DNA from: Arachis hypogaea
Taxonomy: Eukaryota; Streptophyta; Magnoliopsida; Fabales; Fabaceae
Length of the DNA stretch: 64,000 nucleotides
NCBI RefSeq assembly: GCF_003086295.3
Contig: NC_092039.1
Location: 66,669,649-66,733,648, forward strand
Direction of reading: 5' to 3'
The translations under genes and the position numbers were made by a program. The stretch's first letter is position 1. Every line of letters begins with the position of its first letter. Shown in pieces: positions 6,442 to 61,960 of this stretch. The notes under the pieces were generated by a model. The model made no database searches, was not told where the DNA came from, and was given only the letters and a program-made list of their open reading frames with translations.

Positions 6442-6480
6442 ACCTCCCCAAACTTAAACGTTAGCATGTCCTCACGCTAA
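6442..6480 (-). promoter_or_regulatory. Hairpin plus polypurine tract at the 3' LTR of TE3
   Basis: Read on the minus strand: stem TTAGCGTG, loop AGGA, stem CATGCTAA (one G-T pair), then CGTTTAAGTTTGGGGAGGT directly abutting the LTR start TGATAAACC. The purine-rich stretch is where plus-strand DNA synthesis would be primed. The hairpin is the same module found in TE4, TE6, TE7, TE8, TE9 and TE10 with other stem sequences. Confidence 0.75.
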
Positions 6481-6838: not shown

Positions 6839-8607
6839 TGATGAGTGGATAATTTATACGCTTTTTGGCATTGTTTTTATATAGTTTTTAGTAAGTTTAA
6901 GCTAATTTTAGGGATGTTTTCACTATTTTTTATGATAAATTCACATTTCTGGACTTTACTATGAGTTTGTGTGTTTTTCTGTGATTTCAGGTAAATTCTG
7001 ACTGAAATTGAGGGATTTGAGCAAAACTCTGAAGAAGGCTGACAAAAGGACTGCTGATGCTGTTGGAATCTGACCTCCCTGCACTCGAAATGGATTTTCT
7101 GGAGCTACAGAACTCCAATTGGCGCGCTCTCAACAGCGTTGGAAAGTAGACATCCAGAGCTTTCCGGCAATATATAATAGTCCATACTTTATTCGAAGAA
7201 TGACGACGTAACGTGGCGTTGAACGCCAAGTACACGCTGCTGTCTGGAGTTAAACGCCAGAAAAACGTCATTATCCGGAGTTGAACGCCCAAAACACGTT
7301 ATAACTCGGAGTTCAACTCCAAGAAATGCCTCAGCTCGTGGATTAATCAAGCTCAGCCCAAGCATACACCAAGTGGGCCCCGGAAGTGAATTTATGCATC
7401 AATTACGTACTCATGTAAACCCTAGGAGCTAGTTTATTATAAATAGAACATTTATCTATTGTATTAGACGTCTTTTGACCATGTTTCATCTTTGGTCTCA
7501 GTTTTGTTTTATTCTTCATCTTAGGAGATCATTGATCATGTTAGGGAGGCTGGCCATTCGGCCATGCCTGAACCCTTTGCTTATGTATTTTCAACGGTGG
7601 AGTTTTTGCACACCATAGATTAAGGGTGTGGAGCCCTGCTGTACCTCAAGTATTAATGCAATTCTATTTTCTTTTATTCAAATCTCTCTTATTCTTATTC
7701 CAAGATATTCATTCGTACCCAAGAACATGATGAATGTGATGATAAGTAACCCTCATTATCATTCTCACTCATGAACGTGCGTGATTGACAACCACTTCCG
7801 TTCTACATGCAACAGAGCTTGAATGCGTATCTCTTAGATTCCCCAACAGAATCTTCGTGGTATAAGCTAGATAGATGGCGGCATTTATGAGGATCCGGAA
7901 AGTCTCACCTTGTCTGTGGTATTCCGAGTAGGATCCTGGGAATCCGGAAAGTCTAACCTTGTCTGTGGTATTCCGAGTAGGATTCCGGTAATGAATGACT
8001 GTGACGTGCTTCAAACTTGTAACCTGCTGGGCGTTAGTGACAGACGCAAAAGAGGGATTCTATTCCAGTAGGAGCGGGAACCAACCGGTGATTAGCCGTA
8101 CTGTGACAGAGTGCGTGAGCATTAGTTTTCACTGCGAGGATGGGATGTAGCCATCAGCCATGGGTGATGCCTCCAGACGATTAGCCGTGCGACTGACAAC
8201 CGCATAGGATCATTTTCCCGAGAGGATGAAAGTAGCCACAGTTGATGGTGAACCCCTATACAAAGCTTGCCATGGAAAGGAGTAAGAAGGATTGAGTAGA
8301 AGCAGTAGGAGAGCAGGCGTCCTTGGGCTCTACAGCATCTCCATCCGCTTATCTGAAATTCCCACCAATGAATCTGCATAAGTATTCTATCCCTTTTATT
8401 ATTCCTTTTTATTATTTATTCCAATAATCACAATTCCCCTTTAATCTGCCCTACTGAGATTTACAAGGTGACCATAGCTTGCTTCATACCAACAATCTCT
8501 GTGGGATCGACCCTTACTCACGTAAGGTGACCCTTTTATTATTCCTAAGTTCCACAATTCTACAATAAATGCAAATCAAAGAATAGTGATCACAATTTCG
8601 TCCACCA
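6839..8607 (+). repeat. TE4 5' LTR
   Basis: 1769 bases from TGATGAGTGG to CGTCCACCA. It has GGCGTTGAACGCC-type units at 7206-7345, a TATA box, and near the end GGGATCGACCC with the hairpin CCTTAC-TCAC-GTAAGG (8512-8527). Relative to the 3' LTR about 54 bases are missing after CACGTAAGG, replaced by a short repeat of nearby T-rich sequence. Confidence 0.93.
7438..7446 (+). promoter_or_regulatory. LTR TATA box of TE4 (5')
   Basis: TATAAATAG after AAACCCTAGGAGCTAG; the same phrase is found in the TE1 and TE7 LTRs. It would drive the element transcript. Confidence 0.55.
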
Positions 8608-8613
8608 AGTTTT

Positions 8614-8631
8614 TGGCGCCGTTGCCGGGGA
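8614..8631 (+). other. Primer binding site, tRNA-Asp (TE4)
   Basis: TGGCGCCGTTGCCGGGGA is an exact 18-base complement of the plant tRNA-Asp 3' end, six bases after the LTR. Confidence 0.92.
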
Positions 8632-10113: not shown

Positions 10114-12441
10114 ATGAGCAGGAACAGGGAAAAAGGCACTCTTGTTGAAATTGATCCAGAACCTGAAAGGACTCTGAAGAGAAAATTAAGAGAAGCTAAA
10201 TTACAACAATCCAGAAACAACCTTTCAGAAATTTTCGAACAAGAGAAGGACATGGCAGCCGAAAATAATAATAATAATAATGCAAGGAGAATGCTTGGTG
10301 ACTTCACAAAGCCAACATCCAAGTTTGATGGAAGAAGCATCTCCATTCCTGCCATTGGAGCCAATAACTTTGAGCTTAAGCCTCAACTAGTTGCTTTAAT
10401 GCAACAAAACTGCAAGTTTTATGGACTTCCATCTGAAGATCCCTATCAGTTCTTAACTGAGTTCTTGCAGATCTGTGAGACTGTAAAGACGAATGGAGTT
10501 GATCCTGAAGTCTACAGACTCATGCTTTTCCCTTTTGCTGTAAGAGACAGAGCTAGAATATGGTTGGATTCACAACCTAAGGATAGCCTGGACTCCTGGG
10601 ATAAGCTGGTCACTGCCTTCTTGGATAAATTCTTTCCTCCTCAAAAGCTGAGCAAGCTGAGAGTGGATGTTCAAACCTTCAAACAAAAAGATGGTGAATC
10701 CCTCTATGAAGCTTGGGAAAGATACAAGCAGCTGACCAAAAGATGTCCATCTGACATGTTTTCAGAATGGACCATGTTAGATATATTCTATTATGGTCTC
10801 TCTGAATTTTCGAAAATGTCACTGGACCATTCTGCAGGTGGATCTATTCACCTGAAGAAAACGCCTGAAGAGGCTCAAGAACTCATTGACATGGTTGCAA
10901 ACAACTAGTTCATGTATACCTCTGAGAGGAATTCCGTGAATAATGGGATACCTCAGAAGAAAGGAGTTCTTGAAATTGATGCTCTGAATGCCATATTGGC
11001 TCAGAACAAAGTGTTGACTCAACAGGTCAACATGATCTCTCAAAATCTGAATGGATTGCAACATGCATCCAACAGTACTAGAGAGGCAGCTTCTGAAGAA
11101 GCTTATGATCCTGAAAACCCTGCCATGGCAGAGGTTAATTACATGGGTGAACCTTATGGAAACACCTATAACCCATCATGGAGAAATCATCCAAATTTCT
11201 CCTGGAAGGATCAACAAAAGCCTCAACAAGGCTTTAACAATGGTGGACGCAATAGGCTGAACAATAGTAAGCCATATCCATCATCTTCTCAGCAACAGAC
11301 AGAGAACTCTGAACAAAACAATTCTAATTTAGCCAATATAGTCTCTGATCTGTCAAAGGCCACTTTCAGTTTCATGAATGAAACAAGATCCTCCATTAGA
11401 AATTTGGAGGCACAAGTAGGCCAGCTGAGTAAGAAAGTTATTGAAACTCCTCCCAGTGCTCTCCCAAGCAATACAGAAGAAAATCCAAAAGGAGAGTGCA
11501 AGGCCATTGATTTGATCAAAGTGGCCGAATGCACTAGGGAGGAGGAGGACAAAATTCCTAGTGAGGAAGACCTCCTGGGACGCCCTTCAAGCAAGAAGGA
11601 GTTTCCTATTAAGGATCCAGAGGAATCTGAGGCTCATCTAGAGACCATAGAGATTCCATTAAATCTCCTTCTACCATTCATGAGCTCTGAAGAATATTCA
11701 TCCTCTGAAGAGAATGAAGATGTGACTGGAGAGCAAGTTGCTCAATACTTAGGAGCTATCATGAAGCTGAATGCCAAGCTGTTTGGTAATGAGACTTTGG
11801 AAAGTGAACCTCCCTTGCTCATTAGTGAACTGGATACTTGGATTCAGAAAACTCTACCTCAAAAGAAACAAGATCCTGGCAAGTTCTCAATACCTTGCAC
11901 CATTGGCACCATGAGCTTTGAAAAAGCTCTATGTGATATTGGGTCAGGGATAAATCTGATGCCACTCTCTGTAATGGAGAAGTTGGGAATCATTGAGGTA
12001 CAACCTGCCTTGTTCTCATTACAATTGGCAGATAAGTCTTTGAGACAAACTTATGGAATAGTAGAGGACGTTTTAGTAAAGGTTGAAGGCCTTTACATCC
12101 CTGCTGATTTCATAATCCTAGACACTAGGAAGGAAGATGATGAATGCATCATCCTAGGAAGACCTTTCCTAGCCACAGCAGAAGCTGTGATAGATGTCAA
12201 TAGAGGAGAGTTAGTCCTTCAATTAAATGGGGACTACCTTGTGTTTAAGGCACATGGCCATCCCTCTGGGACAAAAGAGAGTAAGCATGAAGAGCTTCTC
12301 ACAGTTCAAAGTCAGGAAGAGCTCACACAGTCAAACTCTAAGTTTGGTGTTGTGAGGCCACAACCAAACTCTAAGTTTGGTGTTCAAACTCCATATCCAA
12401 ACTCTAAGTTTGGTGTTGGCAACTATACAACATTGACCTGA
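10114..12441 (+). pseudogene. gag: TE4 gag-protease, one in-frame stop
   Basis: One frame of 776 codons broken by a single TAG at 10906-10908, where relatives have CAG (NNQFMYTSE). Residues about 1-60 are charged (MSRNREKGTL, EPERTLKRKLREAK). The retrotransposon gag domain spans roughly 85-260 (NNFELKPQLVALMQQNCKF; RIWLDSQPKDSLDSWDKLVT; VQTFKQKDGESLYEAWERYK). A linker with YNPSWRNHPNFSW follows, without a CCHC knuckle that I can see. A pepsin-like protease with DIGSGINLMPLSVMEKLG (usual plant motif D-L/I-G-A/S-S) and IILGRPFLATAEAVID follows. The C-terminus carries three NSKFGV repeats. The ATG lies just after the T-rich leader, as in TE7 and TE10. Confidence 0.9.
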
Positions 12442-13217: not shown

Positions 13218-13252
13218 TTGCTCGAGGGCGAGCAATATTTTAAGTTTGGTGT
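13218..13252 (+). promoter_or_regulatory. Hairpin plus polypurine-like motif upstream of ORF2 (TE4)
   Basis: TTGCTCG-AGGG-CGAGCAA (13218-13235), six bases, then AAGTTTGGTGTGG. It lies about 38 bases before the ORF2 start. It has the same design as the module at the 3' LTR but with a different stem. Confidence 0.8.
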
Positions 13253-13289
13253 GGTAAAAGCATAGCTTTTTGCTTTTCCATTACCATTA

Positions 13290-13622
13290 ATGGCACCTAA
13301 GGCCAGAGAAACCTTAAAAGAAAGACAAAAGCTTCCACCTCTGAGTCTTGGGAGATGGAAAGACTTATATATAAGCTGGAATAGCTCAGTTGGTTAGAAC
13401 ATGTGGCTGCAAATCAAGAGATCCCTGAGATACCACAGGGGATAAGTTGTCCTCCACACAAATATTGGAAGCAATTAAGGATGGAACATCATGAGCACTC
13501 CATCATTCTCCAAGAAATAAGAGAAGATCAAAAGAGCAATGAGGGAGGAGCAACAAAGGCAAGGAAGGGACATAGAAGAGTTGAAGAACATCATTGGTCC
13601 TTCAAGAAGAAGACGCCACTAA
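13290..13622 (+). pseudogene. TE4 ORF2 remnant with large internal deletion
   Basis: Start MAPKARET and end ...RRRRH-type tail match ORF2 of TE10 and TE7, but only 333 bases remain against 1125 in TE10. After GGGAGATGGAAAGACTT the reading jumps through a tRNA-derived insert to AAGAGATCCCTGAGAT, near the start of the C-terminal region. The start region is also frameshifted. What survives of the tail is the coiled-coil part (HHEHSIILQEIREDQK). Not functional. Confidence 0.85.
13375..13409 (+). pseudogene. 5' half of tRNA-Asn inside the TE4 ORF2 deletion
   Basis: 35 bases starting GCTGGAATAGCTCAGTTGG agree with the first 35 bases of plant tRNA-Asn(GTT), as I recall it, at all but two positions (both G to A). 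The match starts exactly at tRNA base 1 and stops after the first anticodon base in the anticodon loop. It replaces the deleted middle of ORF2. It cannot form a whole tRNA. Confidence 0.8.
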
Positions 13623-14682
13623 AGGTGGATTCATTCCTTCTTCTTTATTTTCTTTCTGTTTTTCGTTTTTAATTAGTGTGTTTAATTATGTTTTGTGTCT
13701 CTACTTCATGATCATTAGTATGTAACCATGCCTTAAAGCTATGAATAAAATCCATTAGTCCTTCACTTATCTTAAATGAAAAATGTTTTAATTCAAAAGA
13801 ACAAGAAGTACATAATTTTCGAAATTATTATTGAATTTAATTTAATTATATTGATGTGGTGGCAATAATTTTTGTTTTCTGAATGAATGCTTGAACAGTG
13901 CATATTTTTTATCTTGTTGTTTATGAGTGTTAAAATTGTTGGCTCTTGAAAGAAGGATGAACAAAGAGAAATGTTATTGATGATCTGAAAAATCATGAAA
14001 TTGATTCTTGAAGCAAGAAAAAGCAGTGAAAAAGGAAGCTTGCGGAAAAAAAAAAAGTGGCGAAAAAAAAATAGAAAGAAAAAGAAGGAGCAGTAGAAAA
14101 AGCCAATAGCCCTTAAAACCAAAAGGCAAGGGTAAAAAGGATCCAAGGCTTTGAGCATCAATGGATAGGAGGGCCCAAGGAAATAAAATCCAGGCCTAAG
14201 CGGCTAAATCAAGCTGTCCCTAACCATGTGTTTGTGTCATGAAGGTCCAAGTGAAAAGCTTGAGACTGAGTGGTTAAAGTCGTGATCCAAAGCAAAAGAG
14301 TGTGCTTAAGAGCTCTGGACACCACTAACTGGGAACTCTAGCAAAGCTGAGTCACAATCTGAAAAGGTTCACCCAGTTATATGTCTGTGGCATTGATGTA
14401 TCCGGTGGTAATACTGGAAAACAAAGTGCTTAGGGCCACGGCCAAGACTCATAAGTAGCTGTGTTCAAGAATCAACATGCTTAACTAGGAAAGTCAATAA
14501 CACTATCCAAAATTCTAAGTTCCTAGAGATGCCAATCACTCTAAACTACAAAGGAAAAAGTGAGATGCCAAAACTGTTCAGAAGCAAAAAGCTACAAGTC
14601 CCGCTCATGTGATTAAATTAATATTCATTGATATTTTGGACTTTATAGTATATTCTCTTCTTTTTATCCTATTTGATTTTCA
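13623..14682 (+). other. TE4 3' non-coding tail
   Basis: About 1.06 kb without a coding frame, well conserved with TE7, TE8 and TE10 (phrases GCCTAAGCGGCTAAATCAAG, AGAGCTCTGGACACC, GGCCACGGCCAAGACTC). It contains a long purine tract at 14043-14102. Confidence 0.75.
14043..14102 (+). repeat. Internal purine tract (TE4)
   Basis: About 60 bases, almost all A and G on the sense strand, with GTGG and AGGAG breaks. It ends about 620 bases before the 3' LTR. A tract at a similar distance is present in TE3, TE6, TE7, TE8, TE9 and (shorter distance) TE10. Confidence 0.8.
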
Positions 14683-14720
14683 GTTGCTTGGGGACAAGCA
14701 ACAATTTAAGTTTGGTGTTG
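14683..14720 (+). promoter_or_regulatory. Hairpin plus polypurine tract at the 3' LTR of TE4
   Basis: GTTGCTTG-GGGA-CAAGCAAC (14683-14702), five bases, then AAGTTTGGTGTTG up to the LTR start at 14721. Position identifies the purine-rich stretch as the primer for plus-strand synthesis. Confidence 0.85.
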
Positions 14721-16543
14721 TGATGAGCGGATAATTTATACGCTTTTTGGCATTGTTTTTATATAGTTTTTAGTAAGTTTAAGCTACTTTTAGGGATGTT
14801 TTCACTAGTTTTTATGATAAATTCACATTTCTGGACTTTACTATGAGTTTGTGTGTTTTTCTGTGATTTCAGGTAAATTCTGACTGAAATTGAGGGATTT
14901 GAGCAAAACTCTGAAGAAGGCTGACAAAAGGACTGCTGATGCTGTTGGAATCTGACCTCCCTGCACTCGAAATGGATTTTCTGGAGCTACAGAACTCCAA
15001 TTGGCGCGCTCTCAACGGCGTTGGAAAGTAGACATCCAGAGCTTTCCACCAATATATAATAGTCCATACTTTATTCGAAGAATGACGACGTAACTTGGCG
15101 TTGAACGCCAAGTACACGCTGCTATCTGGAGTTAAACGCCAGAAAAACGTCATTATCCGGAGTTGAACGCCCAAAACACGTCATAACTCGGAGTTCAACT
15201 CCAAGAAATGCCTCAGCTCGTGGATTAATCAAGCTCAGCCCAAGCATACACCAAGTGGGCCCCGGAAGTGAATTTATGCATCAATTACGTACTCATGTAA
15301 ACCCTAGGAGCTAGTTTATTATAAATAGAACATTTATCTATTGTATTAGACGTCTTTTGACCACGTTTCATCTTTGGTCTCAGTTTTGTTTTATTCTTCA
15401 TCTTAGGAGATCATTGATCACGTTAGAGAGGCTGGCCATTCGGCCATGCCTGAACCCTTTGCTTATGTATTTTCAACGGTGGAGTTTCTGCACACCATAG
15501 ATTAAGGGTGTGGAGCCCTGCTGTACCTCAAGTATTAATGCAATTCTATTTTCTTTTATTCAAATCTCTCTTATTCTTATTCCAAGATATTCATTCGTAC
15601 CCAAGAACATGATGAATGTGATGATAAGTAACCCTCATTATCATTCTCACTCATGAACGTGCGTGATTGACAACCACTTCCGTTCTACATGCAACAGAGC
15701 TTGAATGCGTATCTCTTAGATTCCCCAACAGAATCTTCGTGGTATAAGCTAGATAGATGGCGGCATTTATGAGGATCCGGAAAGTCTCACCTTGTCTGTG
15801 GTATTCCGAGTAGGATCCTGGGAATCCGGAAAGTCTAACCTTGTCTGTGGTATTCCGAGTAGGATTCCGGTAATGAATGACTGTGACGTGCTTCAAACTT
15901 GTAACCTGCTGGGCGTTAGTGACAGACGCAAAAGAGGGATTCTATTCCAGTAGGAGCGGGAACCAACCGGTGATTAGCCGTACTGTGACAGAGTGCGTGA
16001 GCATTAGTTTTCACTGCGAGGATGGGATGTAGCCATCAGCCATGGGTGATGCCTCCAGACGATTAGCCGTGCGACTGACAACCGCATAGGATCATTTTCC
16101 CGAGAGGATGAAAGTAGCCACAGTTGATGGTGAACCCCTATACAAAGCTTGCCATGGAAAGGAATAAGAAGGATTGAGTAGAAGCAGTAGGAGAGCAGGC
16201 GTCCTTGGGCTCTACAGCATCTCCATCCGCTTATCTGAAATTCCCACCAATGAATCTGCATAAGTATTCTATCCCTTTTATTATTCCTTTTTATTATTTA
16301 TTCCAATAATCACAATTCCCCTTTAATCTGCCTAACTGAGATTTACAAGGTGACCATAGCTTGCTTCATACCAACAATCTTTGTGGGATCGACCCTTACT
16401 CACGTAAGGTTTATTACTTGGACGACCCAGTACACTTGCTGGTTAGTTGAACGGAGTTGTGTCCACTCGTGCCAAAAATCCTAAGTTCCACAATTCTACA
16501 ATAAATGCAAATCAAAGAATAGTGATCATAATTTCGTCCACCA
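14721..16543 (+). repeat. TE4 3' LTR
   Basis: 1823 bases from TGATGAGCGG to CGTCCACCA, TATA box TATAAATAG at 15320-15328. Followed by the target copy TGCAC. Confidence 0.93.
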
Positions 16544-17565: not shown

Positions 17566-17601
17566 CTCCCCACACTTAAAGATTGCACCGTCCTCGGTGC
17601 A
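17566..17601 (-). promoter_or_regulatory. Internal hairpin plus polypurine motif (TE3)
   Basis: On the minus strand: TGCACCG-AGGA-CGGTGCA, then ATCTTTAAGTGTGGGGAGGT. The stem shares nothing with the other copies beyond the closing G-C pair, yet it pairs perfectly. Same loop and same following phrase as at the 3' end of this family. Confidence 0.8.
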
Positions 17602-26878: not shown

Positions 26879-28529
26879 TGATGAGCGGATAATTTATATG
26901 CTTTTTGACATTTTTTTAGGTAGTTTTTAGTAGGGTCTAGCTACTTTTAGGGATGTTTTTATTAGTTCTTATGAAAAATTCACATTTTTGGACTTTACTA
27001 TAAGTTTGTGTGTTTTTCTATGATTTCAGGTATTTTCTGGCTGAAATTGAGGGACCTGAGCAAAAATATGATTCAGGCTGAAAAAAGATTGCTGATGTTG
27101 TTGGATTCTGACCTCTCTGCACTCAAGACATATTTTCTGGAGCTACAGAACTCTAAATGGCGCGCTCTCAATTTCGTTGGAAAGTAGACATCTATGGCTT
27201 TCCAGAAATATTTAATAGTTCATACTTTGTTTGAGCTTAGATGACGCAAACGGGTGTTCAATGCCAGCTCCATGCTGTATTCTGGAGTAAAACGCCAGAA
27301 ACATGTCACAAACCAGAGTTAAACGCCAAAAACATGTTACAACTTGGCGTTTAACCCCAAGAGAAGCCTCTGCACGTGTACAGCTCAAGCTCAACCCAAG
27401 CACACACCAAAGTGGGACCCAGAAGTGGATTTCTGCACTTAGACTAATTTTTGTAAACCCTAATAGCTAAGTTTAGTATAAATAGAACTTTTTACTATTG
27501 TACTAGGCGTCTTTGACCAAGTCTTATCTTTGGATTGTCTTTTGATTCATTGATCATGTTTTGGGGGCTGGCCTCACAGCCATGCCTGCACCTTTATCAC
27601 TTATGTATTTTCAATGATGGAGTTTCTACACACCATAGATTAAGGTGTAGAGCTCTGCTGTTCCTCGAGTATTAATACAATTACTATTATTCTTCTATTC
27701 AATTAAGCTTATTCTTATTTAAAGATATTCGCTGCACTTCAACATGTTGAATGTGATGATCTGTGACACTCATCATCATTCTCACCTATGAACGCGTGCC
27801 TGACAACCACTCCCGTTCTACCTTAGATCGAGCGCATATCTCTTGGATTCCTTAATCAGAATCTTCGTGGTATAAGCTAGAATCCATTGGCAGAATTCTT
27901 GAGAATCCAAAAAGTCTAAACCTTATCTGTGGTATTCCGAGTAGGATTCATGGATTGAATGACTGTGACGAGCTTCAAACTCGCGAGTGTTGGGCATAGT
28001 GACAGACGCAAAAGAATCACTGGATTTTATTCCGACATGATCGAGAACCGATAGATGGTTAGCCGTGCTGTGACTGAGCATTTGGACCATTTTCACAGAG
28101 AGGATGGGAAGTAGCCATTGACAATGGTGACTCCCTACATACAGCTTTCCATAGAAAGGAGTAAGAATGATTGGATGAAAGTAGTAGGAAAGTAGAGATT
28201 CAGAAGGAACAAAGCATCTCCATACACTTGTCTGAAATTCCCAGCAATGATTTACATAAGTATCTCTATCTCTATTTTATGCTTTATTTATCTTTATATT
28301 CGAAAACCATTATAACCATTTGAATCTGCCTAACTGTGATTTACAAGATGATCATAGCTTGCTTCATACCAACAATCTCCGTGGGATCGACCCTTACTCA
28401 CGTAAGGTATTACTTGGACGACCCAGTGCACTTGCTGGTTAGTTGTGCGAAGTTGTGACAAAGTGTGATTCGCGTTTAAGAGCTCCAAGTCTTTGGTGCC
28501 ATTGTTGATGATCACAATTTTGTGCACCA
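26879..28529 (+). repeat. TE7 5' LTR
   Basis: 1651 bases, TGATGAGCGG to TTGTGCACCA. GGCGTT-type units at 27250-27365, TATA box TATAAATAG at 27477-27485, U5 hairpin CCTTAC-TCAC-GTAAGG near the end. Confidence 0.9.
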
Positions 28530-28535
28530 AGTTTT

Positions 28536-30086: not shown

Positions 30087-32394
30087 ATGAGCAGGAGCAA
30101 GGACAAGGACATTCTTGTTGAAGCAGATCTTGAACTTGAAAGGACTCTGAAGAAGAAACTAAGAGAAACTAAAGCACAAAAATTCAAAGAAAACCTTACA
30201 GAGAATCTCGAAAAAGAAGAAATGGCCGAACCCAATAACGATGGTGTAGGCGCAAGGAGGATGCTTGGTGATTATACTACACCCACTTCTATTTTTTATG
30301 GAAGAAGCATCTCAATCCCTACCATTAGAGCAAACAATTTTGAGCTGAAGCCTCAACTAGTTACTCTAATGCAACAGAATTGCAAGTTTCATGGACTTCC
30401 ATCAGAAGATCCCTATCAGTTCTTAACTAAATTCTTGCAGATCTGTGATACTGTTAAGACTAATAGAGTAGATCCTAAAGTCTACAGGCTCATGCTTTTC
30501 CCCTTTGCTGTAAGAGACAGGGCTAGAACATGGTTGGACTCACAACCTAAAGATAGCCTGGACTCTTGGGATAAGCTGGTCACGGCCTTCTTGGCCAAGT
30601 TCTTTCCTTCTCAAAAGCTGAGCAAGCTTAGTGTGGATGTTCAGACCTTCAAACAAAAAGATGGTGAATCCCTCTATGAAGCTTGGGAAAGATACAAGCA
30701 GTTGACCAAAAAGTGTCGTTCTGGCATGCTTTCAGAATGGACCATTTTAGATATCTTCTATGATGGTCTATCTGAGCTTTCTAAGATGTCACTGGACCAT
30801 TCTATAGGTGGATCCATTCACTTAAAGAAAACGCCTGCAGAAGCTCAAGAACTCATTGATATGGTTGCAAATAACCAATTCATGTACACCTCTGAGAGGA
30901 ATCATGTGAATAATGGGATGCCTCAGAAAAGGGGAGTTCTTGAAATTGATACTCTGAATGCCATATTGGCTTAGAACAAAATGTTGACTCAAGAAGTCAA
31001 CATGATTTCTCAGAGTCTGAATGGATGGCAAAATGCATCCAACAGTACTAAAGAGGCATCTTCTGAAGAAGAAGCTTATGATCATGAGAACCCTGCAATG
31101 GCAGAGGTAAATTACATAGGTGAACCCTATGGAAATACCTATAATTCCTCATGGAGAAATCATCCAAATTTCTCATGGAAGGATCAACAAAAGCCTCAAC
31201 AAGGCTTTAATAATGGTGGAAGAAACAGGTTTAGCAATGACAAGCCTTTTCCATCATCTTCTCAGCAACAGACAGAAAATTCTGAGCAGAGCCCCTCTAG
31301 CTTAGCAAACATAGTCTCTAATCTATCTAAGGCCACTTTAAGTTTCATGAGTGAAACAAGGTTCTCCATTAGGAATTTGGAGGAACAAGTGGGTCAGTTG
31401 AGTAAAAAAATCACTAAAACTCCTCCTAGTACTCTCCCAAGCAATACATAAGAGAATCCCAAAAGAGAGTGCAAGGCCATTGATATAATCAATATGGCCG
31501 AATGCCTAAAGGAGGAGAAGGACGTGAATCCCAGTGAGGAAGACCTCCTGGGACTTCCTTTGAACAAAAAGGAGTTCCAAACTGAGGAACCTAAGGAATC
31601 TGAGGCTCACCTAGAGACCATAGAGATCCCATTGAACCTCCTTTCACCATTCATGAGCTCTGAGAACTATTCTTCCTCGAAAGGGGATGAAGATATAATT
31701 GAAGAGCAAGTTGCTCAATATCTAAGAGCCATCATGAAGCTGAATGCCAAGTTGTTTGGTAATGAGACTTGGAAATGTGAACCTCCCTTGCTCATTAGTG
31801 AACTAGATACATGGGTTCAGCAAACTCTACCTCAAAAGAAACAAGATCCTGGTAAATTATTAATATCATGTACCATAGGCACCATGACCTTTGAGAAGGC
31901 TCTGTGTGACCTGGGGTTAGGTATAAATCTTATGCCACTCTCTGTAATGGAGAAGCTGGGGATCTTTGAGGTACAAGCTGCAAGAATCTCATTAGAGATG
32001 GCAGACAAGTCAGTAAAATAAGCTTATGTATTGGTAGAGGACGTGTTAGTGAAGCCTAAAGGCCTTTACATCGCTGCTGATTTCATAATATTAGACACTG
32101 GGAAGAATGAGAATGAATCGATCATTCTTGGAAGACCCTTCCTAGCCACAGCAGGAGCTGTGATTGATGTTGACAGAGGAAAGCTAGTCCTTCAATTGAA
32201 TGGGGACTACCTTGTGTTTAAAGCTCAAGGATGAAAAGCTTCTCTCAATACAAAGTCAAACAAGGCCCCCACAGTCAAACTCTAAGTTTGGTGTTGGGAG
32301 GCCACAACCAAACTCTAAGTTAGGTGTTGAACCCCCACATTCAAACTCTAAGTTTGGTGTTGGGAGGTCCCAACAATGCTCTGATGATCTGTGA
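30087..32394 (+). pseudogene. gag: TE7 gag-protease, several stops
   Basis: Starts MSRSKDKDILVEADLELER. It has the gag domain (TWLDSQPKDSLDSWDKLVT, VQTFKQKDGESLYEAWERYK), YNSSWRNHPNFSW, protease text ALCDLGLGINLMPLSV and IILGRPFLATAGAVID. In-frame stops at 30972 (CAG to TAG), 31449 (GAA to TAA) and 32019 (CAA to TAA). A deletion near 32229 then shifts the frame; the last part (to 32394) again carries NSKFGV repeats, the middle copy mutated to NSKLGV. In the protease the usual DLGSS reads DLGLG, so activity would be doubtful even if restored. Confidence 0.88.
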
Positions 32395-33291: not shown

Positions 33292-33326
33292 TTGCTCGAG
33301 GGAGAGCAACATTCTAAGTTTGGTGT
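33292..33326 (+). promoter_or_regulatory. Hairpin plus polypurine-like motif upstream of ORF2 (TE7)
   Basis: TTGCTC(G)-AGGG-(A)GAGCAA, where the innermost pair has decayed to G-A, then CATTCTAAGTTTGGTGTGG. About 40 bases before the ORF2 ATG. Confidence 0.75.
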
Positions 33327-35586: not shown

Positions 35587-35624
35587 GTTGCTTGGGGACA
35601 AGCAACAATTTAAGTTTGGTGTTG
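35587..35624 (+). promoter_or_regulatory. Hairpin plus polypurine tract at the 3' LTR of TE7
   Basis: GTTGCTTG-GGGA-CAAGCAAC (35587-35606), then AATTTAAGTTTGGTGTTG up to the LTR start at 35625. Confidence 0.85.
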
Positions 35625-37275
35625 TGATGAGCGGATAATTTATACGCTTTTTGGCATTGTTTTTAGGTAGTTTTTAGTAGGATCTAGCTACTTTTAGGGA
35701 TGTTTTTATTAGTTTTATGCAAAATTCACATTTCTGGACTTTACTATGAGTTTGTGTGCTTTTTTGTGATTTCAGGTATTTTTTGGCTGAAATTGAGGGA
35801 CCTGAGCAAAAATCTAATTCAGGCTGAAAAAGGACTGCTGATGCTGTTGGATTCTGACCTCCTTGCACTCGAGACGGCTTTTCTGGAGCTACTAAACCCC
35901 AAATGGCGCGCTCACAATTTCGTTGGAAAGTAGACATCTAGGGCTTTCCAGCAATATATAATAGTCCATACTTTGTTTGATCTTAGACGATGCAAACTGG
36001 CGTTCAACGCCAGCTCCATGCTGCATTCTGGAGTAAAAAGCAAGAAACACGTCACAAACCAGAGTTAAACGCCAAAAACACGTTACAACTTGGCGTTTGA
36101 CCCCAAGAGAAGCCTTTTCACATGTAAAGTGCAAGCTCAACCCAAGCACACACCAAAGTGGGCCCCGGAAGTGGATTTCTGCACTTAGACTTATTTTTAT
36201 AAACCCTAGTAGCTAAGTTTAGTATAAATAGAACTTTTTACTATTGTACTAGGCGTCTTTGACCAAGTCTTATCTTTGGATTGTCTTTTGATCCTTTGAT
36301 CATATTTTGGGGGCTGGACTCACGGCCATGCCTGGACCTTTATCACTTATGTATTTTCAACGGTGGAGTTTCTACACACCATAGATTAAGGTGTGGAGCT
36401 TTGCTATTCCTCGAGTATTAATGCAATTACTATTATTCTTCTATTCAATTAAGCTTATTCTTATTCTAAGATATTCGCTTCACTTCAACATGATGAATTT
36501 GATGATCTATGACACTCTTCATCATTCTCACCTATAAATGCGTGCCTGACAACCACTCCCGTTCTACCTTAGATCGAGCGCATATCTCTTGGATTCCTTA
36601 ATCAGAATCTTCATGGTATAAGCTAGAATCCATTGGCAGCATTCTTGAGAATCCGGAAAGTCTAAACCTTGTATGTGGAATTCCGAGTAGGATTTAGGGA
36701 TTGAATGACTATGACGAGCTTCAAACTCACGAGTGTTGGGCGTAGTGACAAACACAAAAGAATCACTGGATTCTATTTCGACATGATCGAGAACCGACAG
36801 ATGATTAGCCGTGCTGTGACAATGCATTTGGACCATTTTCACTGAGAGGATGGGAAGTAGCCATCGACAACGGTGATGCCCTACATACAGCTTGCCATAG
36901 AAAGGAGTAAGAATGATTGGATGAAAGCAGTAGGAAAGCAGAGATTCAGAAGGAACAAAGCATCTCCATACACTTGTCTGAAATTCCCACCAATGATTTA
37001 CATAAGTATCTCTATCTCTATTTTATTCTTTATGTATCTTTATATTCAAAAACCATTATAACCATTTGAATCCTCCTAACTGAGATTTACAAGATGACCA
37101 TAGCTTGCTTCATACCAACAATCTCTGTGGGATCGACCCTTACTCACGTAAGGTATTACTTGGACGACCCAGTGCACTTGCTGGTTAGTTGTGTGAAGTT
37201 GTGACAAACTGTGATTCACATTTGAGAGCTCCAAGTCTTTGGTGCCATTGTTGATGATCAGAATTTTGTGCACCA
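35625..37275 (+). repeat. TE7 3' LTR
   Basis: 1651 bases, TGATGAGCGG to TTGTGCACCA; TATA box TATAAATAG at 36223-36231; GGCGTT-type units at about 36000-36110. Confidence 0.9.
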
Positions 37276-38073
37276 ATTTATCAAATGTTAGACCTTATGC
37301 ATTGATGTCCTTGTATATAGTTTGAAAGAAAGAAAAATGAGAAAAGCAAAAAGAAAAAAAATTAATATGAAAAAAAAGGGGGAAAAGAAAGAAAAAATAT
37401 ATAGAAAAAAAGAAAGAAAAAGAAAAGCAATAAAAGGGGACAAAATGCCCCAAAGCGAAGTTCAATAAAAATCAATGCATATGTGTTGTGAAGTGAAAAG
37501 AAAATGCATGAGTATGTGAAGAAGTGAAGAATGGGTAGTTAGGTTAGCACCTAATTGTATAGGTTGTCATATAGGTTAGGTGGAAAGCTTAGGCTAATCA
37601 AAGATTCAAATTATAGTCCACTTAACCATATTTGACACTACTTTGACCCTAGCCCCATTACAACCTTTGAGAAAGTCCTCATGATATTTGTATGCATGCA
37701 TTGAATGATTGTTGATTGTTAGATGAAGAACAAATCTTGGAAAGCATGATTAGGGTAGAATTGAGTGAATCAACCCCAAACACTTGAGTGACTAGAGCAG
37801 ATACACATCAGGTGAGGATTCGATTGCTCAATTACACATTTATACCATGATAATTCAATACAATTTGTAAATCTTTTTGATAATTCAATACAATTATGGG
37901 TTTGGTTCGATTGGATTCCTATTGCTCTAGCCCCTATGCTTACATATGTTTTCTTGGAGGTTGATTTGTTTTGAACAAGTGATTGTATTCATATACATAG
38001 TTGCAATTAGATAGGTTGCATATAGTTTAGTTGTATTGAATAAATGTCATACCCCTTGTTTCCTTCATTGATT
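37276..38073 (+). other. TE6 3' non-coding tail
   Basis: No coding frame. A purine tract covers 37321-37440, followed by GGGGACAAAATGCCCC. The same phrases are found in reverse in TE3 around 16760-16800. It contains CCATTACAACCTTTGA, matched in reverse by the TE3 text next to the TE4 insertion point. Confidence 0.7.
37321..37440 (+). repeat. Internal purine tract (TE6)
   Basis: About 120 bases, nearly all A and G, about 670 bases before the 3' LTR at 38112. Confidence 0.8.
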
Positions 38074-38111
38074 TAGCATGAGGACATGCTATTGTTTAAA
38101 TGTGGGGAGGT
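38074..38111 (+). promoter_or_regulatory. Hairpin plus polypurine tract at the 3' LTR of TE6
   Basis: TAGCATG-AGGA-CATGCTA (38074-38091), then TTGTTTAAATGTGGGGAGGT and the LTR start TGATAAATC at 38112. Perfect 7-bp stem. Confidence 0.82.
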
Positions 38112-38862: not shown

Positions 38863-40585
38863 TGGTACACAAAATCGTGATACACAACTTCGTGCAGCTG
38901 ACCAGCATGTGCACTGGGTCGTCCAAGTAATACCTTATGTGAGTAAGGGTCGATCCCACGGAGATTGTCGGCTTGAAGCAAGCTATGGTCATCTTGTAAA
39001 TCTCAGTCAGGCGGATTCAATTGGTTATGAAACTTTGATAATTAAAAGATAAATAAACATAAAATAAAGATAGAGATACTTATATAATTCATTGGTGGGA
39101 ATTTCAGATAAGCGTATGGAGATGCATTATTTCTTCTGAATCTCTGCTTTCCTACTGCCTTCATTCAATCATTCGAACTTCTTTCCATGGCAAGTTGTAT
39201 GTTGGGGATCACCGTTGTCAATGGCTACCTCCCATCCTCTTAGTGAAAATGGTCCTCTACGGTTTCTGTACGGCTAATCAACTGTCGGATTTCTTGTCTC
39301 GGATGAAACATACCAGGCACAGCTACTGCATGGCTAATCAGATGTCGGTTCTCGATTGTGTCAAAATAAGATCCAATGATCCTTTTGTGCACTGTCGCTG
39401 CGCCCCACAGTCACGAGTTTGAAGCTCTTCATAGTCATCCCTTCCCAGATCCTACTCGGAATACCACAGACAAGGTTTAGACTTTTCGAATCTCAGGAAT
39501 GCTGCCAATTGTTTCTAGCATATACCACGAAGGTTCTAATCTCAGATTCAGATGCCCCAATGTTAGAGGGGAAACAATGTGAATCATTGATTAGAGTCCC
39601 AAGAGATATGCATTCAAGCTTGTTTTCATGTAGAACGGAAGTGTTTGTCAGGCACGCGTTCATAAGTGAGAATGGTGATGAGTGTCACTTGATCATCACA
39701 TTCATCATGTTCTTGTGTGTGAATGAATATCTTGGAATAAGAATAAGCTTGAATTGAATAGAAGAACAATAGTACTTTGCATTAATACTTGAGGAACAGC
39801 AAAGCTCCACACCTTAATCTATGAGGTATAGAAACTCCACCGTTGAAAATACATAAGAGATAATGGTGTTCATTGGTTTCGGCCCCAGAGAGGGAACTAG
39901 AATAACCAAGACCTAGGTCTAAGGACTAAACGTCCAAAACATTTCCCAAAGATTGTCAGTACAATAGTAAAAAGTCCTATTTATACTAAACTAGTTACTA
40001 GGGTTACAGAAATAAGTAAATGATGCAGAAATCCACTTCGGGGCCCACTTGGTGTGTGCTTGGGCTGAGCATTGAAGCTTTCATGTGTAGAGACTTTTCT
40101 TGGAGTTAAACGCCAGCTTTTATGCTAGTTTGGGCGTTTAACTCTAGCTTTTATCTTGTTTCTGGTGTTTAATGCCAGAAATGGGTAGGAAGTTGGCGTT
40201 TGAACGCCAGTTTGCATCATCAAAACTCGGGCAAAGTATAGACAATTATATATTGCTGGAAAGCCCAGGATGTCTACTTTTCAACACTACTGAGAGCGCG
40301 CCAATTGGGTTTCTGTAGCTCCAGAAAATCCATTTTGAGTGCAGGGAGGTCAGAATCCAACGACATCTGCATACCTTTTTCAGCCTCTGAATCAGATTTT
40401 TGCTCAGGTCTCTCAATTTCAGCCAGAAAATACCTGAAATCACAGAAAAACATAAAAACTCATAGTAAAGTCTATAAATGTGATTTTTGCTTAAAAACTA
40501 ATAAAAATATACTAAAAAGTAGCTAGATCCTACTAAAAACTACCTAAAAACAATGCCAAAAAGCGTATAAATTATCTACTCATCA
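38863..40585 (-). repeat. TE8 3' LTR
   Basis: 1723 bases, TGATGAGTAG to the TACCA-type end on the minus strand. Palindrome units at 40100-40215, TATA box TATAAATA (minus) at 39978-39985, U5 hairpin near 38935-38955. Confidence 0.85.
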
Positions 40586-40623
40586 CAACACCAAACTTAA
40601 ATTGTTGCTTGTCCCCAAGCAAC
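40586..40623 (-). promoter_or_regulatory. Hairpin plus polypurine tract at the 3' LTR of TE8
   Basis: Minus strand: GTTGCTTG-GGGA-CAAGCAAC (40623-40604), then AATTTAAGTTTGGTGTTG to the LTR. Confidence 0.85.
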
Positions 40624-42894: not shown

Positions 42895-42931
42895 ACACCA
42901 AACTTAAAAGGTTTGCTCGTCCTCGAGCAAA
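42895..42931 (-). promoter_or_regulatory. Hairpin plus polypurine-like motif upstream of ORF2 (TE8)
   Basis: Minus strand: TTTGCTCG-AGGA-CGAGCAAA (42931-42912), then CCTTTTAAGTTTGGTGTGG, about 40 bases before the ORF2 ATG. Confidence 0.82.
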
Positions 42932-43324
42932 AGAAGAAGGAAAGAAGTGGAAGAAGAAGAAAATGGGAGATGGAGGGTGGAATGTGGTTCGTTCAAAGGG
43001 TAGAAGTAGTGTTTGTGATGTGTGAAATTGAAGGAGAGGTGACGGGTTTAGTGAAGAGATGATGCCAGGGCATCTAGGCTAGTTTCACTGACCTTTTCTT
43101 TACTGTTTTAATGTAGTTTCATGCATTTTCTTAGGAAATAAGCAAGTTTTAGATAAAAGAACACTTACATCTTGATTTAGACAAATATTATGAATTTTAC
43201 ATTATTTCATGAGAATTATGCAGGGAATGAATGTCAAATTGGATAATGTATGATTTCATGACTTGGATTAGAGCTTTGATGCACTTTATTTGTGTAATTT
43301 CAGGACAAAGGAAGCAAGGAAGAG

Positions 43325-44152
43325 CCACGTTAGCATCCATGTAAACCTAGTTAACGTAGGTACTAACATGGAATAGGGATAAGCCTGCAGCGTTAATGAG
43401 AAAAGTGGACACCAGTAACGCCCTCGAAGCCATCATGAGCCACGTTAATTGCCACGTTAACTACATTAACGTGGTAGTTAATGTGGAGACAAAAAAGACT
43501 CCAACGTTAGTGGTAATTGTGATAACCAATAACGCTCCAAGATGTGGCAATGAACCACGTTAACTAAAGTTAACGTGGACTCTAACCTGGAAGAGAGGAA
43601 CAATGCCAACGTTAGTGACACTCACCTTTGCCACTAACATTGGATCAAGCTTGCATTGCCCACGTTAGTGGTCACGTTATGAACACTATCGTGAAAGTTA
43701 ATGTGGAGTTGAAATTGATGAGCCAACGTTAGTGACACTCACCTTTGTCACTAACGTTGGGATGGCATTCATAACTACGTTAAGAGCCACGTTAACTTAG
43801 TTAACGTGAGCTCTAATGTGAGGACTAGGGGAACAAGGCAACGTCATTGGGAAATGTGAGTCCTAATAACGCTTGCGAAGATGAGACATAACCACGTTAA
43901 GAGCCACATTAACTTAGTTAACGTGAGCTCTAACGTGGGGGCTAAGGGCACAAGGCAACGTTATTGGGAAAGGTGAGTCCCAATAATGCTTGCGAAGGTT
44001 TGTAAGGCAACGTTAGTGGTCACGTTAGTACCACTAACGTTGGAGTTAACGTGGGCTATGTGGTGGGAACGTTAGTGAGAAAAGTGATTGCCACTAACGT
44101 TCTCGAACCCATAATGTCACTCAGCGTTAACGCCACTAACGCCCCAAGCTAA
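43325..44152 (+). repeat. CCACGTTAAC / GTTAACGTGG palindrome array (TE9 5' LTR)
   Basis: Many copies of CCACGTTAAC and its reverse complement GTTAACGTGG, plus AACGTTAGTG and CACTAACGTT pairs flanking CACTCACCTTTGTCA-like loops. Units are 40-100 bases long with strong local inverted pairing. A copy with small differences is in the 3' LTR. Confidence 0.9.
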
Positions 44153-44282
44153 AGTCCATGCTTACATCACTTTCTCTCTGCAAATAAAGCTGAGCCCACT
44201 GAAGATTCCCAACTGCTTCAACTTAAGATCAAAGGCCCATATCCAAGACTTGCAGAATTGACTAGAAGACCAAGAAGAGTAG

Positions 44283-44291
44283 TATATATAG
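44283..44291 (+). promoter_or_regulatory. LTR TATA box of TE9 (5')
   Basis: TATATATAG in the stretch GAGTAGTATATATAGGAG; conserved in the 3' LTR at 63158-63166. Confidence 0.55.
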
Positions 44292-45230
44292 GAGTAGTTT
44301 TGAACTAGAAAGAGGTTGGCATATTGGAGAAAACTGCACTCTGTATATTTTACCTTTCTGTAACTTCTAGAGTTAGAATGTATTTTTCTTCTTCTTCATT
44401 TCCATTTTCCAGAGCTATGAACAACTAAACCCCTTTCATTGGGTTAGGGAGCTCTGTTGTAATTTGATGGATCAATCATAGTTTTCATTATTCTTCTTCT
44501 TTCTTTTCTCTTGATCTTACTAGAAAGCTTTTGATCTTCATCTAATTGGATTGTTGTCTTGGGAAAGAAACTCTCCATAATTGGATCTTCTCTGAGCCTT
44601 GGAAAAGGGATGAGGGGATCATGCTAGAAATGCTTTCTCATGTTGGACCAAATTGGGGTTTGGATGGGTATAGTGACATATAACCCTACCAACACTTTGA
44701 TTTGGAAATACATGTGGTATAATCAGTGACCATACCTCATCTCTTCTCATGAGCAATTAAATCAAGGAATTGGGCAATTGTTCAAGTTTAGAGAGATTGG
44801 ATTGCCAAGGAATTGGAATTCAATCACTTAAGATTGCCAAGGAGATCAATGAATGCATTGATTGAGGAAGAGATGAGAATGAACTTGATCCAGATAATGC
44901 AATACCTCCTAAACCCAATGATTTTCCCATTTCTGATCTTACCCATTCTCTTTACTTTTTGTCATTTACTTTCATGCTAATCACCCCAATTTCCCATTTA
45001 AGATTCTGCACTTTATTTTCTGTCATTTACTTTCCCGCCATTTAATTTTCAGCAATTCTACATCCACTTTCTGCTTAGCTCAACTAGAGTATTCTTCCAA
45101 TTAAAATTGCTTGACCAATCAATCTCTGTGGGATTTGACCTCACTCTATTGTGAGTTTTTACTTGACGACAATTCGGTATACTTGCCGAAGGAAATTTGT
45201 TGAGAGACAAATTCCCATGCATCAAGTTTA

Positions 45231-45405: not shown

Positions 45406-47056
45406 TGGTGCACGAAATTGTGATTTCTTCTTTTCACAACTCAAATAATCCCCGATGATGAATCCAAAAACTTGGTGTTCAATACCATGGCATAAACACA
45501 ACTTCGCACAACTAACCAGCAGGTGTACTGGGTCGTCCAAGTAATAAACCTTATGCGAGTAAGGGTCGATCCCACAGAGATTGTTGGTATGAAGCAAGCT
45601 ATGGTCACCTTGTAAATCTTAGTCAGGCAAACTCAAATGGTTATGAATGATGAATAAAACATAAAGGTAAAGATAGAAATACTTATGTAATTCATTGGTG
45701 GGAATTTCAGATAAGCGTATGAAGATGCTTTGTCCCTTCCGTCTCTCTGCTTTCCTACTGTCTTCATCCAATCCTTCTTACTCCTTTCCATGGCAAGCTG
45801 TATGTAGGGTTTCACCGTTGTCAGTGGCTACCTCCCATCCTCTCAGCGAAAATGTTCAACGCACCCTGTCATGGCACGGCTATTCAGCTGTCGGTTCTCG
45901 ATCATGTCGGAATAGAATCCAGTGATTCTTTTGCGTCTGTCACTAACACCCCATAATCGTGAGTTTGAAGCTCGTCACAGTCATTCAATCATTGAATCCT
46001 ACTCAGAATACCACAGACAAGGTTTAGACCTTCCGGATTCTCTTGAATGCCGCCATCAATTCTAGCTTATACCACGAAGATTCCGATTACGGGATCCAAG
46101 AGATATCCACTCAATCTAAGGTAGAACGGAGGTGGTTGTCAGGCACACGTTCATAGGTGAGAATGATGATGAGTGTCACGAATCATCACATTCATCAAGT
46201 TGAAGAACAAGTGATATCTTAGAACAAGAATAAGCCGAATTGAATAGAAGAACAATAGTAATTGCATTAATACTCGAGGTACAGCAGAGCTCCACACTTT
46301 AATCTATGGTATGTAGAAACTCCACCGTTGAAAATACATAAGAATAAAGGTCTAGGCATGGCCGTGAGGCCAGCCTCCCAATGATCTAAGATCTAAAGTG
46401 ATCAAAAGATTTAAAATGATCCAAAGATTCCAATACAATAGTAAAAGGTCCTACTTATAGAGAACTAGTAGCCTAGGGTTTACATAGATGAGTAAATGAC
46501 ATAAAAATCCATTTTCGGGCCCACTTGGTGTGTGCTTGGGCTGAGCATTGAAGCATTTTCGTGTAGAGACTTTTCTTGGAGTTAAACGCCAGCTTTTGTG
46601 CCAGTTTGGGCGTTTAACTCCCATTCTTGTGCCAGTTCCGGCATTTAACGCCGGGCAGTCTTGAGCTGATTTGGGACGCCGGTTTGGGCCATCAAATCTC
46701 GGGCAAAGTATGGACTATTATACATTGCTGGAAAGCCCAGGATGTCTACTTTCCAACGCCGTTGAGAGCGCGCCAATTGGGCTTCTTTAACTCCAGAAAA
46801 TCTACTTCGAGTGCAGGGAGGTCAGAATCCAACAGCATCTGCAGTCCTTTTTAGTCTCTGAATCAGATTTTTGCTCAGGTCCCTCAATTTCAGTCAGAAA
46901 ATACCTGAAATCACAGAAAAACACACAAACTCATAGTAAAGTCCAGAAAAGTGAATTTTAACTAAAAACTAATAAAAATATACTAAAAACTAACTAGAAC
47001 ATACTAAAAACATACTAAAAATAATGCCAAAAAGCGTACAAATTATCCGCTCATCA
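45406..47056 (-). repeat. TE10 3' LTR
   Basis: 1651 bases; minus strand TGATGAGCGG to CGTGCACCA. Palindrome-type units at 46570-46680; likely TATA CTATAAGTA (minus) at 46452-46460. Confidence 0.92.
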
Positions 47057-47094
47057 CAACACCAAACTTAAATTGTTGCTTGTCCTCAAGCAAC
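47057..47094 (-). promoter_or_regulatory. Hairpin plus polypurine tract at the 3' LTR of TE10
   Basis: Minus strand: GTTGCTTG-AGGA-CAAGCAAC (47094-47075), then AATTTAAGTTTGGTGTTG to the LTR. Loop differs from TE4 (AGGA for GGGA), stem is the same. Confidence 0.85.
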
Positions 47095-49106: not shown

Positions 49107-49143
49107 ACACCAAACTTAAAAGGTTTGCTCGTCCTCGAGCAAA
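49107..49143 (-). promoter_or_regulatory. Hairpin plus polypurine-like motif upstream of ORF2 (TE10)
   Basis: Minus strand: TTTGCTCG-AGGA-CGAGCAAA (49143-49124), then CCTTTTAAGTTTGGTGTGG (to 49105). Confidence 0.84.
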
Positions 49144-61925: not shown

Positions 61926-61960
61926 TGCTTAGGGACAAGCATGCTTCAAGTTTGGTGTTG
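61926..61960 (+). promoter_or_regulatory. Hairpin plus polypurine tract at the 3' LTR of TE9
   Basis: TGCTT(A)-GGGA-(C)AAGCA (61926-61941), innermost pair decayed from G-C to A-C, then TGCTTCAAGTTTGGTGTTG to the LTR start at 61961. Confidence 0.75.

Follow-up and report, generated by a model that had tools for sequence, protein, structure and literature searches.

Several features considered here are already published for other long terminal repeat (LTR) retroelements. In Sireviruses (Ty1/copia), an inverted repeat around the terminal polypurine tract was proposed to help RNase H define the plus-strand primer; its right arm lies inside the 3′ LTR, the tract lies in its loop, and the multiple tracts further upstream of the 3′ LTR lack such a repeat (PMC2829016). 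The same source cites Wright and Voytas (2002) for an extra tract in the linker of Athila4/Calypso elements, near the env-like open reading frame (ORF), in a passage that mentions no hairpin, and it refers to the internal polypurine tracts of HIV-1 and Ty1, which serve as a second internal plus-strand start, in passages that attach no hairpin to them. Retroviruses and Ty1 have a T-rich box (U-box) before their tract, a place taken by TCTT in fission-yeast elements (PMC10085805). The molecular details of plus-strand primer choice have been described as largely unknown (PMC3185511), and the polypurine tract alone does not fully explain the choice made by reverse transcriptase. We analyzed 64,000 nucleotides (nt) of the peanut genome (Arachis hypogaea, assembly GCF_003086295.3, contig NC_092039.1, positions 66,669,649 to 66,733,648; this whole stretch is referred to as the window), in which nested, putatively Athila-type Ty3/gypsy elements carry a hairpin just upstream of the tract that adjoins the 3′ LTR.

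Selection appears to act on the fold as such, as the letters of the stem differ between families and the pairing is kept. We give an even chance to the proposal that the hairpin would act as a cis-acting element of reverse transcription, helping to define the plus-strand (polypurine-tract) primer of these Ty3/gypsy elements; it is the position of the hairpin that links it to priming.

Structure, covariation and position of the hairpin

Self-alignment resolved the nested LTR elements E1 (+), E2 (+), E3 (−), truncated E4 (−), and E5. Twelve sites in the window carried a stem of 5–8 base pairs (bp), a purine tetraloop, and then the phrase TTTAAGTKTGG or a close variant. An earlier reading of the letters without database searches (the sequence-only reading) had stated eleven copies and listed twelve, and all twelve were found to have both hairpin and phrase. 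The loops were GGGA, AGGA or AGGG, as it had claimed. The 6–8 bp stem closed by G-C was recovered as an uninterrupted stem of 7–8 bp at ten sites, but a closing-pair mismatch at 33292 and 61926 left 6 and 5 bp, respectively. The spacer given as 5–9 bases was incorrect: the stem end lay 2–3 nt before the phrase at all twelve sites, and the loop 9–11 nt before it. Across the hairpin, no Rfam 15 family matched at its gathering score, either in the window or in six further loci.

Covariation was assessed in a gapless alignment of 13 distinct stems, the rows being intact representatives of each type. Ten of the rows came from phrase or putative-integrase sites; the other three (L041, L045, and L048) were taken from a hairpin scan and lean towards pairing. 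Paired cells made up 96.2% of the alignment compared with 59.1 ± 3.9% in shuffles, and 38 cells were changed on both sides compared with 11.5 ± 2.6; neither value was reached by any of 500 shuffles. The covariation score was 1.00 against 0.24 ± 0.06 in the shuffles (0/500), and the maximum for slid versions of the alignment was 0.19. The closing pair and the central two bases of the loop were invariant (G8, G10, G11, and C13). For the twelve copies listed in the sequence-only reading (nine distinct), 88.7% of the cells were paired compared with 69.4%, the score was 0.52 compared with 0.15 (0/500), and two-sided changes in six of the eight pairs were reached by one of 500 shuffles. The stems are better paired than shuffled ones on either set, and the claim of a covarying stem with a kept loop and phrase is borne out. 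When the arms of 11 distinct arm pairs were swapped, the mean pairing dropped from 6.7 to 3.7 of 7, and none of 20,000 re-dealt arm trials reached the observed pairing. For one stem, the variants at a single pair were counted in the 2.557 Gb assembly that contains the window: C-G was found 13,785 times, U-A 23,891 times, C.A 654 times, and U.G 691 times, with zero for all reversed controls; compensated forms totaled 37,676 and uncompensated forms 1345.

The start of the LTR was mapped from tract-less LTR copies in the sampled loci. The distance from loop to LTR was 25–27 nt in all six cases with a mappable boundary. Counted from the loop end, it was 26 nt in the E1–E4 type (three matches at that base and two one base earlier), 27 nt in two families (two matches shared between them), 25 nt in two families (by the same match), and 26 nt in one integrase-anchored family (one match). 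A few other matches were cut elsewhere, and twelve other queries gave no match starting at TG. A chromodomain family had a distance of 25 nt, derived only from its TG. The base of the stem lay 16–20 nt before the LTR. This near-fixed distance was kept despite differing tracts (TTTAAGTTTGGTGTTG, TTTAAATGTGGGGAGGT, and CTATTAGGAGGGTAGAA), and near-constancy relative to the expected plus-strand start points to primer definition.

In E1, the internal hairpin TTGCTCG-AGGG-CGAGCAA with the phrase TTTAAGTTTGGTGT (13218–13252, +) lies 37 nt before the ATG of ORF2, and the terminal hairpin GTTGCTTG-GGGA-CAAGCAAC with the presumed plus-strand priming tract (14683–14720, +) adjoins the 3′ LTR. The internal hairpin of E2 (TTGCTCG-AGGG-AGAGCAA with the phrase, 33292–33326, +) has lost its closing pair, and the terminal hairpin and tract occupy 35587–35624 (+). 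E3 carries TTTGCTCG-AGGA-CGAGCAAA with the phrase at 49107–49143 (−), again 37 nt before the ORF2 ATG, and the terminal hairpin and tract at 47057–47094 (−). In E4, the internal hairpin and phrase lie at 42895–42931 (−) and the terminal hairpin and tract at 40586–40623 (−), with the LTR match from 40585. The terminal hairpin of E5, whose closing pair is now A.C, and its tract (61924–61960, +) are followed by the LTR from 61961, the matched copy of which begins at 43060. Three further sites belong to separate families: TAGCATG-AGGA-CATGCTA with a tract (38074–38111, +; LTR TGATAAA 27 nt past the loop), TTAGCGTG-AGGA-CATGCTAA with a tract (6442–6480, −; LTR 27 nt past the loop), and TGCACCG-AGGA-CGGTGCA with the phrase (17568–17601, −).

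Another family (L002/L003, L020/L021, and L025/L026) also seems, by spacing, to carry two hairpin-tract copies, approximately 1.0–1.2 kb apart. Under the primer-defining proposal, the hairpin would have been duplicated, along with an internal tract, in some elements. The use of the hairpin twice per element, as claimed earlier, is supported by this family and E1–E4, and the families at 6480, 17601, 38074, and 61926 fall outside that support. One copy was said to adjoin the 3′ LTR always, which applies to E1–E5, where the boundaries are visible. The position of the second copy about 40 bases before ORF2 agrees with the 37 nt in both measured elements (E1 and E3), and pyrimidine-rich sequence precedes the internal hairpin. 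The term polypurine tract needs qualifying, as only seven of the 16 bases of TTTAAGTTTGGTGTTG in E1–E4 are purines.

The phrase occurs seven times in E1. It recurs in the leader, in the ORF tail, and ahead of both ORF2 and the LTR, without clustering near the LTR. Copies without a hairpin (TTTAAGTTTGGTGT or TCTAAGTTTGGTGT) lie between the 5′ LTR and gag at 8835, 9033, 28759, and 28921 (+) and 53445 (−). Tandem repeats of 33 nt (12337–12415 and 32281–32359, +; 50015–50060, −) close the ORF that follows gag and contain the phrase in frame (NSKFGV in E1), and in most of them a preceding YCAAAC is able to pair with the GTTTG of the phrase; the ORF has no Pfam match and is protease-like by eye. A hairpin-less, tract-like phrase TTTAAGTGTGGGGAAG was found at 17035 (−); read in its own orientation, it lies 545 nt downstream of the hairpin-preceded phrase at 17580.

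Frequency in the genome and occurrence in other element groups

The assembly contains 146,700 copies of the phrase TTTAAGTTTGGTGT compared with 194 of its reversed control. Using this phrase alone as the anchor, an uninterrupted stem of 7–9 bp was present at 24 of 30 loci, and a 7 bp stem was reached by 0.85% of 30,000 shuffles. The remaining six comprised two decayed copies (L008 and L029) and four loci without a hairpin (L012, L016, L017, and L019). A sample of 200 kb (10 kb at each of 20 round coordinates on contigs C1–C20) was then scanned for the hairpin only, blind to the phrase. It yielded 19 matches compared with four in the reversed sequence, four with a C-G closing pair, and two with an AA loop. 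The phrase or a close variant followed the hairpin in 15 of the 19. Among the other four, L049 stood before a different tract and an LTR-like start, L048 before a purine-rich stretch and TG, and two were chance-like. The L048 hairpin (AAGATTCG-AGGA-CGAATCTT at 4355, +), with TG 25 nt past the loop, possibly represents a further lineage. Conversely, 37 phrases were examined in the same 200 kb after one edge phrase was dropped; 19 had at least six pairs with at most one mismatch, and the loop was NGGN in 15 of these 19.

Twenty short stretches, 13 downstream of chromodomain matches and seven downstream of matches to a putative integrase segment, were picked blind to hairpins; the integrase query segment came from L049, whose hairpin had already been seen. 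A hairpin of the same kind was present in all seven integrase-anchored stretches (L064–L070), as GAAATTTTG-AGGR-CAAAATTTT or GAATTTTG-NGGG-CAAAATTC. Next came a short A/T-rich run, then AGGNGGGTAGAA and TGTAA; L067 was one base shorter, and L069 ended before TGTAA. In the frame of the preceding ...FSGN, read by eye, a stop codon preceded the stem or fell at its start in 7/7, and the stem is therefore essentially non-coding in this group. For example, the frame in L065 ends with TGA, the last two letters of which are the first two of the stem. The query segment (L049:9137–9700) had no significant Pfam match, and the adjacent ORF in L049 matched SH3_Tf2-1. L068 had a weak match to PF00385 (E value of 7e-4, below the cut-off), and L065 and L066 had none. 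We presume from resemblance that these elements are Tekay, and the lineage label is uncertain.

Of the chromodomain stretches (L051–L063), with PF00385 above the cut-off directly upstream, 12 represented one family and L056 was not an element. The hairpin of this family is imperfect (GACG-AGGA-CGTC, a bulge, and three more pairs), and it was read by eye in the sequence because its stem is below the 6-bp listing threshold. Eight of the 12 copies were exact. The four varying copies included one compensated at the fourth pair with an outer pair lost, one pairing through G.U, and two with an altered loop. The background for a G-NGGR-C loop with at least four pairs at any of three adjacent places was 2.6e-4, an over-estimate, as real copies are included.

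A covariance model of the window copies together with their phrase recovered 20 sites beyond the window in the 200 kb of loci (E < 1e-4), but it did not significantly recognize the integrase- and chromodomain-anchored hairpins. Their link to those of the window rests on the loop, closing pair, and spacing, since the profile is not shared, and convergence between the element groups may be involved. The hairpin is not confined to Athila-type elements, to which the sequence-only reading had assigned it: elements whose integrase has a Tf2-1-type tail (SH3_Tf2-1 in L049, and a weak chromodomain match in L068) carry the same design ahead of their LTR-like start, and the chromodomain family has it in imperfect form. 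No match was found in the bacterial genomes searched, and viral contigs gave one match and none on a repeat search. This match was rejected as apparent chance, with no tract after it and a location in coding sequence. The hairpin is therefore demonstrated in one plant genome only. Loci were sampled by phrase, hairpin, chromodomain, and putative integrase segment; copia, CRM, Reina, Galadriel, and Tat/Ogre/Retand were left out as such.

The two main plant Ty3/gypsy lineages are given as chromovirus and non-chromovirus (PMC6317226). We propose tentatively, and with less confidence than the priming role itself, that a hairpin for plus-strand priming, ancient in origin and with its G-NGGN-C loop 25–27 nt before the LTR, is common to both branches, positions RNase H geometrically, and lets some families use a barely polypurine tract.

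Genes and LTRs of the window elements

The self-aligned parts of the E1 LTRs (6839–8528 and 14721–16410, +) share 99.0% identity. The E2 LTRs (5′ copy 26879–28534, 3′ copy 35625–37279, +) share 92.7%, and those of E3 (5′ copy 53793–55442, 3′ copy 45406–47056, −) share 97.2%. E5 has LTR copies of about 2 kb that are 94% identical (43060–45132 and 61961–64000), the match extending to the window end, and it appears to have been interrupted by the E3 insertion. The presumed primer-binding site of E1, identified by eye, is TGGCGCCGTTGCCGGGGA (8614–8631, +), which we take to be complementary to tRNA-Asp. A tRNA-Asp primer-binding site was reported for Diaspora/Calypso (PMC1142308).

The Pfam scan covered 10 of the 15 long ORFs of the window, the gag-region ORF of E2 falling outside it. 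Matches were gag PF03732 (four proteins), PF20167 (two proteins), and a below-cut-off aspartyl protease (one protein). PF03732 was above the cut-off in E1 and E3, with PF19259 weak, and a Ty3/gypsy-type gag thus lies between paired LTRs of the E1–E3 group. ORF2 is an extra ORF near the 3′ LTR that matches PF20167; it encodes 374 aa in E3 (47945–49069, −), is partial in E2, and has relatives in Arachis and Stylosanthes. The E3 protein shares 92% identity with a protein of Arachis stenosperma, and close relatives of it are present in Arachis hypogaea. No reverse transcriptase domain was seen in the ORFs scanned. The window elements look non-autonomous, and gag, the extra ORF, and the LTRs mark E1–E3 as putative Athila-type Ty3/gypsy elements.

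Rfam snoR71 matched at 30624–30727 and at 56124–56225 (−) with 42.3 and 41.1 bits, respectively (gathering cut-off of 40). The matches are antisense to an unscanned ORF at 30087 of another element and to the gag ORF at 55953, and are possibly retroelement-derived or a spurious family match.

Candidate roles and comparison with known systems

If the hairpin helps define the primer, reverse transcriptase would meet its base 16–20 nt past the U3 junction during minus-strand synthesis and would pause there. The RNase H site, trailing the polymerase site by at least 13 bp, would then lie near the U3 junction, and its cut would free the 3′ end of the primer. The loop may also hold nucleocapsid, and the internal copy before ORF2 could, in the manner of a central tract, provide another plus-strand start. 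The spacing of the polymerase and RNase H sites is 17–18 in HIV. In Ty3, it is reported to be approximately 13 bp (PMC5371799), and correct RNase H processing is said to need signals outside the Ty1 tract (PMC2829016).

Several observations weigh against this proposal. The 13 bp of Ty3 differs from 16–20 nt, which would require the enzyme to halt a few nucleotides before the stem. The hairpin cannot exist inside an RNA/DNA hybrid and must therefore act before or after the hybrid stage. The phrase is also present without a hairpin, both in the 30-locus and in the 200 kb tests. Two of the alignment measures are weaker than the others: two-sided change in seven of the eight pairs of the 13 stems was matched by 112 of 500 shuffles and carries little weight alone, and the 18 further pair types were matched by 12 of 500. 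The chromodomain stem (4 bp, a bulge, and 3 bp) is represented by near-identical copies of a single family and lies in what reads as coding sequence, and the window-built covariance model had no significant match to the integrase- or chromodomain-anchored hairpins (best E value of 0.048). While the E1 terminal copy folds with a z-score of −2.2, the internal copy reaches only −0.5, and the minimum-energy fold was a different structure in two of five folded contexts (L069 and L058; L064 was folded on the antisense strand). Finally, G.U intermediates were not preferred genome-wide (U.G 691, C.A 654), and these counts thus give no support for RNA over DNA as the selected strand.

The main rival, which we consider unlikely but the best of the alternatives, is binding of Gag or nucleocapsid, where a zinc knuckle would bind the exposed GG of NGGN, and two copies would raise packaging or RNA chaperoning at the 3′ end. 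Retroviral nucleocapsid binds GG-containing loops, and all 13 representatives keep G at both central loop positions despite drift in the stem; the window elements also encode gag. This role leaves unexplained the 25–27 nt from loop to LTR and the place of the mapped hairpins at the tract. Packaging signals usually lie downstream of the 5′ LTR, where the copies of the phrase are without a hairpin.

A structure in single-stranded DNA is less probable still. It would form in minus-strand DNA after RNA removal, abut the 5′ end of the primer, and position the enzyme or block strand displacement. The position beside the primer fits, and the near-equal rarity of U.G and C.A does not favor an RNA-specific wobble. 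However, intermediates in dead copies come from ordinary decay, which makes the wobble test weak, and in the 13 representatives all three wobble cells are G-U when read on the sense strand, with C-A absent from the four unpaired cells.

Control of ORF2 expression, with the internal hairpin as part of a 3′ splice site or a translation signal for a subgenomic RNA, seems very improbable. In E1 and E3, the internal copy stands 37 nt ahead of the ORF2 start codon, and a pyrimidine tract precedes it, and the reference list of PMC1142308 includes a paper titled on spliced envelope-class plant elements. The pyrimidine tract is not constant (e.g., before the hairpin at L041 position 598), the integrase-anchored hairpins directly follow the pol stop, and the terminal copy is left unexplained, for which reason splicing was rejected as the main role. 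A chance or inherited functionless palindrome carried along with the tract is hardly credible: many copies do come from few families and raw counts are not independent, but no shuffle (0/500) reached the covariation score or paired cells, no re-dealt arms (0/20,000) the pairing, and the hairpin stood in 7/7 stretches not chosen for it.

Compared with the known systems, the peanut hairpin shares with the Sirevirus repeat its tie to the plus-strand tract, and multiple tracts lie upstream of the 3′ LTR in both, though here they are not clustered near it. It differs in having both arms upstream of the tract, in its NGGN tetraloop, in the separate hairpin of the internal tract, and in belonging to Ty3/gypsy elements. 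Across the LTR junction, the best runs of a Sirevirus-type repeat were not beyond chance in E1, E3, and E5 (101, 175, and 64 of 200 shuffles, respectively, did as well), and such a repeat was rejected as a general feature. In E2 (35587–35714, +) and E4 (40496–40623, −) only, the 5′ part of the hairpin can pair with the first 90 nt of the LTR in a G.U-rich run of 16 nt, which was reached by one and none of 200 shuffles, respectively.

The internal copy resembles the extra tract of Athila4/Calypso in its place near an additional ORF. It would share with the internal tracts of HIV-1 and Ty1 the role of a second internal plus-strand start, and it differs in having a hairpin attached. A T-rich stretch directly precedes the tract here as well (TTTAAG, and TTTTAGG in L064), and the hairpin is an additional element upstream of it. 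Searches of open-licence papers, a scope outside which the 2002 Athila4/Calypso paper falls, gave no description of a Ty3/gypsy hairpin that has a conserved loop and lies entirely upstream of the tract. If a structural feature marks the cut from a near-fixed distance, primer choice would follow a geometric rule, testable on short synthetic templates, and this could explain priming in families whose tract has only seven purines in 16. In practice, loop, spacing, and tract together can serve as a marker of the 3′ LTR boundary in plant repeats. The authors of PMC3601003 called in 2013 for a systematic look at other LTR elements for hairpins that contain the tract, and the peanut hairpin is a related case in Ty3/gypsy.

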